From assembly GCA_029204225.1 (NCBI GenBank), contig CM055097.1, positions 34,968,804 through 35,032,803 of the forward strand: DNA of 64,000 bases, written 5' to 3'. This DNA comes from Diphasiastrum complanatum (lineage: Eukaryota > Streptophyta > Lycopodiopsida > Lycopodiales > Lycopodiaceae). Within the stretch, counting starts at the first letter, position 1. Each line of letters opens with the position of its first letter. The translations under genes and the position numbers were made by a program. Shown piece after piece: positions 28,027 through 61,528 of this stretch. The notes below the pieces were generated by a model that saw only the letters and a program-made list of their open reading frames with translations, had not been told where the DNA came from and did not search any database.

Positions 28027-28538
28027 TCACTTGCAAATCGAGGGATGTTGAATAATACATGGGCAAAACTCAGAATTAGTACCTGCAACATAGAGTAAAG
28101 TATGATATAAGCTAGAAATTTAGTAGTTCGATTTAGCACTTCAAATTCCAATTACTAACAACTTCAAGCTTTACCATTAAAACAACCGCTAAATAAAGAA
28201 ATAATGCAAGACATAAGCAAAAATGATGGGCTATTCTATGAAATAAAATGAAATCATTGTTTGTAGCTTAATTTTTTAGTCAATATGAGCTCATAGTCTT
28301 TTACTACCTTCCCAAGGTTTGATAACTATTTATGGATATGCCAGAAGACTAACTACCTAAACATAGAGAGAGAGAGAGAGAGAGAGAGAGAGAGAGAGAG
28401 AGAGAGAGAGAGAGAGAGAGAGAGCGTACATGAGGCATTGCCAATCAATTTGCGACCATAAGCATGAACAAATAGCATGAGAAAAAGAAGAAGCATCATC
28501 AACATAGGCATTAACGATGAGTGATGGTGAATCGCCAT
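28027..28538 (-). CDS. predicted secreted Cys-rich peptide, type B (B1)
   Basis: Two-exon gene of 54 codons: exon 1 28538-28430, intron 28429-28083 (347 nt), exon 2 28082-28027. Residues 1-28 form a signal peptide (MAIHHHSS, then a hydrophobic core LMPMLMMLLLFLMLFV, then HAYG). The predicted mature part begins around RKLIGNAS and ends CTNSEFCPCIIQHPSICK, with Cys at 37, 43, 45 and 53 (C-X5-C-X-C-X7-C). The Cys37 codon is split by the phase-1 intron, which starts GTAC and reaches a 60-base GA/CT tract within four bases; the acceptor is TTGCAG. A TATA box lies about 110 nt upstream. Exon 2 differs from the other two type-B copies only at third codon positions. I recognise no named peptide family; a secreted signal or defence peptide is an inference. 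Confidence 0.7.
28365..28424. repeat. GA microsatellite in B1 intron
   Basis: Thirty AG/GA dinucleotides ending five bases from the splice donor of the type-B gene. It reads as CT on the coding strand. Confidence 0.95.
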
Positions 28539-28647
28539 ATTATAAATTATCTCCTCGTGCTAAAGAAAGAAAGTGCTAGTAACTGTGCTCAAAAGATTAG
28601 TATCCTTTGCCAATACAATTCACACAATGATTGAATGGCAAAATTTA

Positions 28648-28658
28648 GTATTTATAGT
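28648..28658 (-). promoter_or_regulatory. TATA box of peptide gene B1
   Basis: The minus strand reads ACTATAAATAC, 110 bases upstream of the ATG at 28538. It is identical to the A1 promoter core. Confidence 0.7.
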
Positions 28659-28659
28659 A

Positions 28660-30345
28660 TTCCAATGGCTTATAATCTCTAAGGGCATTTGTGTGTGGAA
28701 GTGCGGTGGGGGGGACCTACTTTAGTGTGTAAGCATCTTGGATAAGACATATTAAAAGTCAAAAAGGCCTGCATGAATGTGAAATGTCAAAATACATGTC
28801 TTAGTGGGATAGTTTTTAAAAGCCAACAACCTCACAAAATTGGATGGTTCATATCTTAGTACTACATTGCATGCTTTCTCCCGATTTACCATTAGTCTTT
28901 ATTGAGGGGTTCAATGGTTATATGTGTATGTGTCACTCACTAGGGTAATGGATAAGGATTTCATGGAAATAACCCATGAAGTACAACCTCAAGTGTGAAA
29001 TATCAATCCTATAACTAAGCTAAAGGAGTGGCACAATATTTTAGTATCTATTATTGTTGTGCCTTCAATGATGAAAAGAATGAAATCCATATATGAATTT
29101 ACATATCGCACCAATGTCAAGAATCATTGAAATGTATCACACCATGACAATAAGTCAGTTATTGTGCAGCAACCACGTAATGCTAAGGGTCGGTGGTGGC
29201 GCCATCTCTCAAAGATGGTGTCATATCTCACCAATCCTTGATCTCTAAAAACCCACCACCATCAATGTAGTGGTGGCTGAAAATATGCTCCCCCATCAGT
29301 AGTAAGCAATCAGTAAGCAAAGTTCAGCTAAGAACAATCTAGAAGTAGATATCTTGTTGCCCATAAAAATCTAGTTGATAACTCCAAGGAGACTACATTA
29401 GTTCATAATATCAAAAGCCATTTATGGCACCTCATATTTTAGTTAGCAATTCAAATGATATTACATTCGGGTAAATATCTCAATCATTATTTTCTATTGA
29501 CGTGTCTACATTGTTGGGGATGTACCAAGATGAGTTTGATGTGTAGGTATGCTTACAACTTAGGATGATATGGCTTCATATAAGGATAGATGTGTAGCTT
29601 ACATAGGTTTTTGTAAATATGAGTGATGTGGCATAAAGTCACAATTGTGCTATACTCATTCCGAGTTGTGTGTGCTTCTAAAATAAAAAAAACTATCTAC
29701 TATACTCGATTTGGCCAATCAATCCAATTGCTCCTATAAATTTTATCCTATATCTACTCTAACTCTTTGGTCATTGAGCCCATCACCCATAGGTCTCCAC
29801 TCAGCCATTAAAACATGGATTCTTATCATAAAAGCTACTAGTAATGCAATGACCCATTTGAATGGAAATATAATAAGGTGAATTTTTTTCACATAAACAT
29901 CATAATGAAGACCAACCTGATTTTTAACATATTGGCCAGCACATAGGCAATGATAAACAAAAGAGTTATCAACATCAAGATAATGGAAGCATTAGTTTCT
30001 GGATTAAAGGTGGTTTCCATTCCCTACTATTGATGTTGAACAAAATTCCCTTAACATGGAATAATAGTTTGACAATTTTGATCAATGTCTCTAGTGGAAT
30101 CATGATAGAGTGGTGTGGGACATGCAATGATCTGGTAGCAATTTGAGAAATCCAATGCTAATAAGGGTTGTTTCACACTATTGACAACCCCTAGCCCTTT
30201 CACTTGCTGCTTATTTTTCGAATCTTGGCAATTGAGTTGACGGCGGACACTGGACATCAATCCCTTTTCACATTTGATTGGTAAGTGCAATTTGATTGGC
30301 CCATTTGAATCTTGACATACCATTGGTCCATTTTAAAAGGTCTTG
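28660..30345 (-). repeat. arm of peptide-gene inverted repeat (block I, right)
   Basis: Reverse-complement counterpart of 25235-26330, but longer. It includes a copia-LTR-like segment at 29512-29790 beginning TGTTGGGGATGTACC, the same as the LTR at 62465. That segment is preceded by GTCTACAT in every block. The rest has no gene. Confidence 0.75.
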
Positions 30346-59033: not shown

Positions 59034-59080
59034 GCTATGGTTAGGTAGTTAGTCTTTTGCACGAGGAGATAACTTATAAT

Positions 59081-60039
59081 ATGGCGATTCACCGCCACGC
59101 ATCATTAATGCCTGTATTGATGACGCTTCTTCTTCTTCTCATGCTATTTGTTCATACTTATGGCCGCAAACTTATCGACAATGCCTCATGTGCCCCAAAA
59201 TAGAGTGTTTTCCATGGAATGGATGTCAAATCTCTTTTGTGCTTTTCAGGGACATGTATTAAGCCCTTTTAGGTAGCGAATAGTCAGGAGTGTCAAGTAG
59301 AAGGCATTTCACGTTTGAAAACTGACTTGGCTTGCAAATCGCCACCAAGCGACTATAGGGGTTATGGAGGAAAACCAAAGTTTAAATTTAGGTTTGGACC
59401 TGCTATAAAAGGATGTAGCTCGGTGTAGAATTTTAGCAGGCCATCAAAACATATTTTTGACTTCGTCATTATACTCACAATACCTCTTGTAGCCTATGGT
59501 GTAATGCCACCAACCACGATGCTATAAATTGTGTTTATCATGACATAGTAATAATTGCATGATAATACCAATTATTGATGGATCAACAAAGTCTATAGAA
59601 TTTATTATATAATAGGCCTATGTCGTAACAAAACTAGTAACCTATATCCCCTTTCCCATTATCCTAGGCACTAATATTCCGATGGTTAGTAGCCCATGAT
59701 GGCATTAAATCCAATATGTAGCCTATGCTCTATAATCAACCATGAAGCAATGAGATTTTACTTATTTATTTGATTGCAATCGCACCCACTTAATAATTGA
59801 ATGCTCACAAAGGTGTGTTTATTCCAATTTGTAGAAAATGTGATGATGGTAGTTCATACAATGATTTCTCACTACAACTCATAGCTATTGCTGTTTATAC
59901 TAGACCAAATTGCACCAATCAATTTAGAAACAATCATTATACATGCTATAGTGCAATGTTGTTAATTTTGGATGGAATGGATTGTGCAATACGTTTAGAA
60001 TTTATGCACCCAAAAGTGGTATTCTATTGGGAAAAATAG
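59081..60039 (+). CDS. predicted secreted Cys-rich peptide, type A (A2)
   Basis: Proposed exons 59081-59189 and 59813-60039, intron 59190-59812. Signal peptide MAIHRHASLMPVLMTLLLLL then MLFVHTYG, mature RKLIDNAS. The split Cys codon then leads into CVFIPICRKCDDGSSYNDFS and a longer tail with NC, TC and DC, ending at 60037-60039, about 112 residues in all. The donor (GTGCCC) is weak, and the same exon in A1 stops much earlier, so the tail may not be functional. Much of the intron resembles copia leader sequence. It converges on B3. Exon 1 is secure by homology; the splice is not. Confidence 0.4.
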
Positions 60040-61001
60040 CTCTTACATTATTATAACCAAGTATGTCATTAGATTGTTTTTCTAAAAGAAAAATCAGAAC
60101 AAAATTTTGTGCTATGTCTCGTGCCTTCAACCTATAATAAAATCTTATATAGAAAAGAATGTGCATCATTTTCAATCAACAATACAAATGATCATGGGAT
60201 GTCCACTATCAAGGGGGAAGGAGAAGCAAGAATTATTAGATATTTCTTGGTTTTGTTGGATATGTATTTCATTGATGTGAAAATATGGAAGAGTTTTATG
60301 GATGACTAATTTTGATGTGAAAGTATGGAAGAGCTTTATGGATGACCAATTTTGTTTCCACACTAAATATAATCTTCGTATAATCAATTTGCAACTCTGT
60401 ATCTCAGTGGTTTAATCAAATATTAGTGGCAACAAGTTCATGAATTTTGTACATGGGTTTGGAGTAATTTTGAAAAACATTTCAAAAGGACCTTTGACCA
60501 AACCAATATCAAGAAATGATGTTTTGTGGACCAAACATAAATGATATGCCAAGGCAATCTTGACTACTCAAGAATCTCTGCCACAATTCAATCGAATAAG
60601 GGATTACATGTTCAATAATTCCTTGATAGGTATCAAGAGTAATTTGAGTGTATCCATACTCGAACCATCCTCTAATATGGTAATGCAAGAAAAGTAAAAC
60701 CTTCGTCATGCGAATGTAGAAAAGAAGAACAAATTTTCAAGACAAAAAAGTAAGTAGCAAAAGGAATGGAGCAAAGAGTTTAAAAGTAAGATTAATTTAA
60801 TATCTGAATGATCATCCAGTAAAAATATACAGCCATGTTGCTAATCTACTTAAACTACTCAAAAACAAAATTCCAAAGAGTACAGAAACTATTCCTGGTC
60901 TATGCTCAATGGTGAGGCACAAAGGTGCTATGCAGAATAGCACATCACATATTGTTGTAGGACTCAACTCAATACCATCTTCTTGTGATGGAATCATCCC
61001 T
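60040..61001. other. shared 3' region between convergent peptide genes (block III)
   Basis: Homologous to 27185-28026 but with the complete type-B 3' portion. A duplicated segment (GATGTGAAAATATGGAAGAG) lies at 60277 and 60314. Confidence 0.5.
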
Positions 61002-61528
61002 TCACTTGCAAATCGAGGGATGTTGAATAATACATGGGCAAAACTCGGAATTAGTACCTGCAACAAAGAGTAAAGTATGATATAAGCTAGCAGTTCACTT
61101 TAGCACTTCAAATTCTAAATACTAACAACTCCAAGCTTTACCATTAAAACAACATCTAAAGAAAGAAGGAATGAAAGACATACGCAAAAATGATGGACTA
61201 TTCTATGAAACAATAGATAAAATCACTGTTTGTAGCTTAATTTTTTAGTCAATATGAGCTTATAGTCTTTAATACCTTCCAAAGCTTTGAAAACTATTTA
61301 TGGATATCACAGAAGACTAACTACCAAACCATATATATATATATATATATATATATATATATATATATATATATATATATATATATATAGAGAGAGAGAG
61401 AGAGAGAGAGAGAGAGTACATGAGGCATTGCCGATAAGTTTGCGGCCATAAGCATGAACAAATAGCATGAAAAGAAGAAGAAGCATCATCAATATAGGCA
61501 TTAATGATGAGTGACGATGAATCGCCAT
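61002..61528 (-). CDS. predicted secreted Cys-rich peptide, type B (B3)
   Basis: Exon 1 61528-61420, intron 61419-61058 (362 nt), exon 2 61057-61002; 54 codons. Signal peptide MAIHRHSSLMPILMMLLLLF then MLFVHAYG, mature RKLIGNAS followed by CTNSEFCPCIIQHPSICK (Cys 37, 43, 45, 53). The donor GTAC is followed by a GA tract and a 59-base AT tract on the plus strand; the acceptor is GTTGCAG. The TATA box is at 61639-61648. Of the three copies it has the cleanest signal peptide. An alternative exon 2 frame stays open longer, but it would be changed by all three differences between copies, so it is not preferred. Confidence 0.7.
61331..61416. repeat. AT plus GA compound microsatellite in B3 intron
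   Basis: AT tract 61331-61389 followed by AG 61389-61416, ending about three bases from the splice donor. Confidence 0.95.

Follow-up and report, generated by a model that had tools for sequence, protein, structure and literature searches.

A local cluster of two-exon genes in Diphasiastrum complanatum predicted to encode a secreted peptide with a nearly invariant four-cysteine tail

A stretch of 64,000 nucleotides from Diphasiastrum complanatum (hereafter the window; located at 34.97–35.03 Mb on C6, a 75.6-Mb sequence of the 1.74-Gb assembly) carries three copies, hereafter denoted A, B and C, of a small predicted two-exon gene, the second exon of which encodes an 18-residue tail containing four cysteines. 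Judged from its sequence, the locally clustered gene family to which they belong is real and under selection, and is of a familiar kind. Our interpretation, which we hold at a probability of roughly 60%, is that the cluster comprises two-exon genes for a secreted peptide ligand that would act on a fixed extracellular partner. The last 18 residues are kept nearly unchanged by selection, and the family therefore probably consists of real signal or defence peptide genes; the contrast in selection between the signal part of the precursor and its tail argues for a fixed extracellular partner.

Copies A, B and C were read directly from the window sequence and spliced by script. In copy A (minus strand), exon 1 (28430..28538) runs from the ATG through a hydrophobic signal peptide to the stretch YGRKLIGNAS and ends in phase 1; it is followed by a predicted intron (28083..28429) with GT and AG ends, and by a 56-nt exon 2 (28027..28082) encoding CTNSEFCPCIIQHPSICK and a stop. 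Copy B (plus strand) has exon 1 at 45563..45671, a predicted intron at 45672..46070 and exon 2 at 46071..46126, and the corresponding positions in copy C (minus strand) are 61420..61528, 61058..61419 and 61002..61057. In all three copies the 109-nt and 56-nt exons join in frame to give 54 codons plus TGA, across predicted introns of 347–399 nt which start with GT (preceded by T at the junction), end with AG and contain a CT microsatellite, with an AT microsatellite additionally present in C. An earlier interpretation of this DNA, made without database searches (hereafter the sequence-only reading), had proposed these exon coordinates and predicted junctions, and all of them are correct; the shared TATA-type box that it described is likewise present, as a TATAAATA box located, by eye, 110–118 nt 5′ of the ATG in each window copy (28649..28656, minus strand, in A; 45446..45453, plus strand, in B; 61639..61646, minus strand, in C). 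The three differences among the exon 2 copies (TCT/TCC, CCA/CCG and CCC/CCG) are, as it had also stated, silent in the spliced frame, and they alter residues (L/P, H/R and P/R, respectively) if the other open frame is read; a stop closes the third frame of exon 2.

Conceptual splicing of copy A gives MAIHHHSSLMPMLMMLLLFLMLFVHAYGRKLIGNASCTNSEFCPCIIQHPSICK, and the products of B and C are closely related to it. The precursor size of 54 residues given in the sequence-only reading stands for A, B and C, the predicted products of which each end in CTNSEFCPCIIQHPSICK, but not for a further member of the cluster (g9, described below), which would encode 57 residues. Residues 9–24 are hydrophobic (mean Kyte-Doolittle value 2.77) and precede the sequence VHA-YG; by composition, as opposed to a signal predictor, the product has the short precursor and N-terminal signal peptide of plant secreted cysteine-rich peptides. 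The mature part had been put at about 26 residues, but would instead comprise 28 after the likely cut between A26 and Y27 (judged by eye). This predicted 28-residue part has an isoelectric point (pI) of 8.5, a net charge of +1.8 at pH 7 and a mass of approximately 3.08 kDa before disulfides and sugar, whilst the 18-residue tail within it is nearly neutral, since it contains, by eye, one Glu and one Lys.

The four cysteines (C37, C43, C45 and C53) are arranged as C-X5-C-X-C-X7-C and are kept in all eight open copies of the cluster, giving the predicted mature part the conserved, even number of cysteines typical of plant secreted cysteine-rich peptides; they are probably closed by two disulfides. 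The segment from F42 to K54 is invariant across the same eight copies, each of which also has a glycosylation sequon (N34-X-S36). Splicing, expression, secretion, disulfide formation and the role as a ligand are, we infer, indicated by these features of the sequence.

The distribution of the family was examined by protein searches of the whole genome, in which the counts are lower bounds. A search with E values up to 0.001 returned 28 matches (42/42 candidates scored), and one with E values up to 10 returned 38 (41/41 candidates scored); 25 of these 38 lie on C6 at 34.878–35.057 Mb, nine on the unplaced contig C3666 and two on C4012, likewise unplaced, whilst the remaining two (C21, E 1.5; C1, E 3.0, with one stop) are at chance level. 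The family is consequently not dispersed, as the sequence-only reading had it: 36 of the 38 protein matches are confined to one cluster of approximately 180 kb on C6, together with C3666 and C4012. The C21 match was considered as a distant relative and rejected, as 1,200 bases there show no C-X-C-type exon on that strand; its frames resemble, by eye, broken retrotransposon sequence. Over the first 40,000 of its 41,177 bases, C3666 matches the window region piecewise at 99.7–99.96% identity, without some 8 kb that C6 carries in the matching region; the C4012 sequence compared (3,120 bases) is 99.1–99.5% identical to the region of gene g4. These two sequences are probably second haplotypes or assembly duplicates of parts of the cluster, and the copies on them were excluded from all copy and selection counts.

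Within 210 kb of C6 around the window we found 18 exon-1 copies or fragments and nine exon-2 copies, eight of them open and the ninth (C6 34923391) with a frame-breaking change. Eight complete genes can be assembled on C6, namely g1 (34886330), g2 (34896210), g4 (34925930), g5 (34962628), A, B, C and g9 (35048232). The predicted two-exon structure is common to all eight, with the predicted GT and AG splice sites retained in each. The 6.7 kb separating the exons of g9 contain, on the opposite strand, an open frame of 1,335 codons that resembles a retroelement (C6:35049456-35053460; Copia-type by eye).

Selection was assessed on the eight open genes. Among gap-free columns, 46/165 are variable in the upstream region, 51/187 in the intron, 25/109 in exon 1 and 6/56 in exon 2, the last being a lower proportion than in upstream region and intron combined (97/352; one-sided Fisher p = 0.0036). 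The ratio of replacement to silent differences (pN/pS), summed over 28 pairs after removal of three inserted codons from g9, is 0.60 for codons 1–36 (signal/pro part) and 0.08 for codons 37–54 (tail). We also simulated neutral evolution of the exons along the upstream-plus-intron tree (length 0.44) in 3000 runs. Two tail residues are variable, compared to a neutral mean of 12.2, and two or fewer occurred in none of the 3000 runs; the four cysteines are all kept in eight copies, compared to a neutral mean of 3.9 (all eight in 1% of runs); and exon 1 has 13 variable residues, compared to 22.8 (p about 0.0007). The number of open copies is eight, against a neutral mean of 5.4. When 56-column windows were moved along seven of the genes (g5, the 3′ flank of which is unrelated, was excluded), exon 2 had five variable columns, a value equalled or bettered in 0/460 windows clear of exon 2. 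The pN/pS values, the neutral simulation and the window scan agree in upholding what had been proposed from the window alone, a multi-copy, predicted secreted cysteine-rich family with codon-level constraint in exon 2. Frequent stops in further copies, or equal rates of silent and replacement change, which the sequence-only reading had named as grounds for its own refutation, were looked for and did not emerge: eight of nine exon-2 copies are open, and four of the six variable exon-2 columns in the open copies are silent third codon positions.

Several of the results weigh against a constrained tail with a fixed partner, or lessen the force of the counts. Since the frameshifted ninth exon-2 copy was omitted, the counts tilt somewhat toward constraint. 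By the column counts, the lower variability of exon 1 relative to the upstream region and intron is not significant (Fisher p = 0.39), and the proportion of silent columns in exon 2 taken alone reaches only p = 0.02–0.06. All eight copies remain open in 9% of the neutral runs (p = 0.09), so that openness by itself is not unusual. Replacements occur in the tails of two of the eight copies (E41K in g5 and S40Y in g9). The windows with the fewest variable columns (four) lie partly in exon 2 and partly in the 3′ flank, and this flank is intermediate in the same seven genes, with 21/109 variable columns versus 47/187 in the intron and 5/56 in exon 2. The identity of the partner, most likely a receptor, is furthermore something which we purely infer.

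Two of these points bear on readings in which the peptide plays no part. The conservation of the 3′ flank, into which the lowest windows extend, would suit an exon 2 conserved for a non-protein reason, for example as an RNA element or through gene conversion confined to this exon. We consider this scarcely credible, as the variable columns fall mostly at silent third positions, the silent sites of exon 2 differ as much (pS 0.143) as neutral DNA (mean differences of 0.09–0.10 in intron and upstream region), and none of the eight genes has lost its stop codon, cysteines or splice sites. The unremarkable openness of the copies, for its part, is consistent with a functionless, recently amplified repeat in which exon 2 is intact by chance, as are the divergence of 2–14% among the genes in intron and upstream sequence and their position amid retrotransposon remains and many broken neighbours. 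Such a repeat is nevertheless very improbable given the near absence of variable tail residues in the face of the neutral expectation, the retention of every cysteine and the lack of any equally conserved window clear of exon 2.

As a mechanism, the signal peptide and the short segment YGRKL(I)GNAS would come from exon 1, and the nearly invariant 18-residue four-cysteine tail, probably with two disulfides, from exon 2; once secreted, the tail would act outside the cell on its fixed partner. The benefit of having several copies may lie in dose, expression site or timing and not in diversification of the peptide, since the tail is constant while the signal part drifts among the duplicates. A different use of such a dose is conceivable, in which the cluster raises the amount of a small, disulfide-closed, weakly basic defence peptide (antimicrobial or anti-herbivore) that would target microbes or feeding animals directly. 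Clustered multicopy cysteine-rich genes are common among defence peptides, and the pI of the predicted mature part is in keeping with this. Clusters of defence and partner-recognition peptides usually diversify in the mature part, however, whereas the tail here is frozen relative to the signal part, and the charge of the 28-residue part is slight and that of the tail nearly nil. We regard direct defence as unlikely, though not negligibly so, and retain the secreted ligand with a fixed partner as the preferred interpretation; the cluster, with eight genes for a single, nearly invariant tail of 18 residues, offers a candidate that can be tested.

The arrangement of the genes indicates that the cluster grew by local gene duplication, mostly of a gene together with a truncated copy facing it. 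Six of the eight genes (g1, g2, g4, g9, A and C) have a truncated exon 1 on their 3′ side, oriented toward the gene; no facing truncated copy was found for g5, and B has a divergent, exon-less remnant instead. In the window, the duplicated unit around A (25240..30537) holds the intact gene, a convergent truncated copy and inverted promoter arms, that around B (42356..46978) includes the divergent remnant, and that around C (58052..62739) holds the intact gene and convergent truncated copies. The promoter arms are 1–2 kb long and in inverted orientation; for the unit of A, for which inverted repeats were listed, they lie near both ends.

Nine exon-1 copies without exon 2 (t0–t8) were compared. 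Facing A is t5 (26453..26570, plus strand), the exon 1 of which continues into CMPK and a stop, with no exon 2 found downstream. Two face C, both on the plus strand: t6 (58737..58854), which has lost its start (ATT), has a CT repeat and for which no exon 2 was found, and t7 (59081..59189), which continues into CAPK and a stop. The remnant beside B, divergent from it (43220..43674, minus strand), consists of promoter and 5′ untranslated region up to the start-codon position, an intron scrap and 3′ untranslated region, and neither exon could be matched in it. Amongst t0–t8, the ATG is lost in t1, t3 and t6, a frame-breaking indel is present in t2 and t4, and a cysteine codon is lost in t8. The exon 1 of t0, t5 and t7 is free of these three kinds of damage; t5 and t7 are still open, ending in (M/A)PK, and exon 1 of t0 is intact, with no second exon found for it. 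Copies t5 and t7, as well as t2, t4 and t8 outside the window, have a common breakpoint after exon 1 (window 26570-26610 in t5 and 59189-59230 in t7), with the sequence CCAAAATAGAGTGTTTTCCATGG or one close to it. One old truncated gene was therefore probably duplicated alongside the intact gene. We also considered the truncated copies, with their CMPK, CAPK or FTPK endings before a stop, as a second functional class; this is unlikely, as six of the nine are damaged, but it is conceivable for t5 and t7, which remain open.

The arm ends were compared by eye. No common end was recognised at 13 arm-end positions (a set with some alternatives for one end, and excluding the ends of C and g5), and several arms stay alike beyond the point at which the shorter arm of A stops, then diverge at different places. 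Because the arms part at different places, local duplication is preferred over carriage by a transposable element. The latter is disfavoured also by the protein search, in which no copies were found beyond the C6 cluster, C3666 and C4012 except the two chance-level matches. Mobile-element ends were not recognised by eye at the arm ends, no formal search for target duplications having been made, whereas the unit of A does carry inverted arms near both its ends. The suggestion in the sequence-only reading that the family was spread by repeats thus survives in part: a repeat exists in the form of local duplication, but with no ends of a mobile element recognised by eye.

Copia- and Gypsy-like remains occur around and between the duplicated units (by eye outside the window). 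Pfam identified retrotransposon domains in four of the eight window frames scanned, namely gag, RNase H and integrase domains at window 2248-3234, 19800-20456, 33175-34545 and 55154-56020. Two direct repeats (window 35069-35902 and 39052-39875), 95% identical and approximately 3.1 kb apart, are perhaps long terminal repeats. A further pair of segments, at window 21820-22951 and 48543-49683, is 94% identical.

In searches for relatives, none of A, B and C matched a Pfam family at E values up to 10. In the PDB, a single-sequence search returned one match (a conotoxin, E = 2) and a profile search five (the best being SUZ12, E = 0.34), all of which we read as chance; in the protein collection searched, no candidate shared three words with the query. 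The peptide strings SEFCPC, QHPSICK and CPCIIQ were not found in the searched literature, nor did similar four-cysteine, two-exon gene clusters have a match there by title and start of abstract. Plant proteins may be sparse in Pfam, the PDB and that protein collection; the family, which the sequence-only reading had called possibly undescribed, is probably so.

The nearest lead in print is the CTNIP/SCREW family (receptor kinase HSL3/NUT, with BAK1), compared here by description; we claim no membership of it. CTNIP4 (70 residues) is described as active through its C-terminal 23 residues, which suffice and which include the essential C58 and C68, and candidates were filtered for two cysteines 9–11 residues apart (PMC9191895). 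The likeness lies in the short signal-peptide precursor, the C-terminal location of CTNIP activity and the arrangement C43-X9-C53-K54 of the present peptide, which has the spacing of C58/C68, one residue before the end, and falls within the 9–11 filter (PMC9191895). A diverged phytocytokine of this family, perceived by HSL3/NUT and amplified in this lineage, would fit these features, as well as the opening CTN of the tail and the statement in the same source that more than 40% of its CTNIPs were unannotated (PMC9191895). We think this improbable. The present family has four invariant cysteines, compared to the two conserved in CTNIPs, and a precursor of 54 residues compared to 70 in CTNIP4 (PMC9191895); its tail begins CTN but lacks CTNIP, and the CTN cysteine is not in the nine-residue pair. 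The spacing is moreover a weak criterion, because four cysteines give several spacings and one of nine residues may occur by chance. RALF and EPF/EPFL peptides resemble the family as secreted cysteine-rich plant signals, but their printed examples have 50 and 45 residues and, by eye, other cysteine spacings (PMC12349381).

A narrower version of the preferred interpretation is that the cluster, with its eight or more genes, encodes an undescribed, lineage-specific four-cysteine peptide hormone family in which the ligand hardly varies and the number of genes tunes dose or expression; we advance this tentatively, as a possibility that falls short of even odds. LURE1 and the nodule NCR defensin-like peptides are encoded in local gene clusters, with a signal peptide followed by a cysteine-rich mature part, and in these respects the present genes are alike. 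They differ in that LURE1 and NCR peptides have other cysteine patterns and a diversifying mature part, whereas the 18-residue tail here is nearly invariant. A frozen signal, the dose of which is tuned by gene number, would, if true, be the reverse of such diversifying cysteine-rich peptide clusters.

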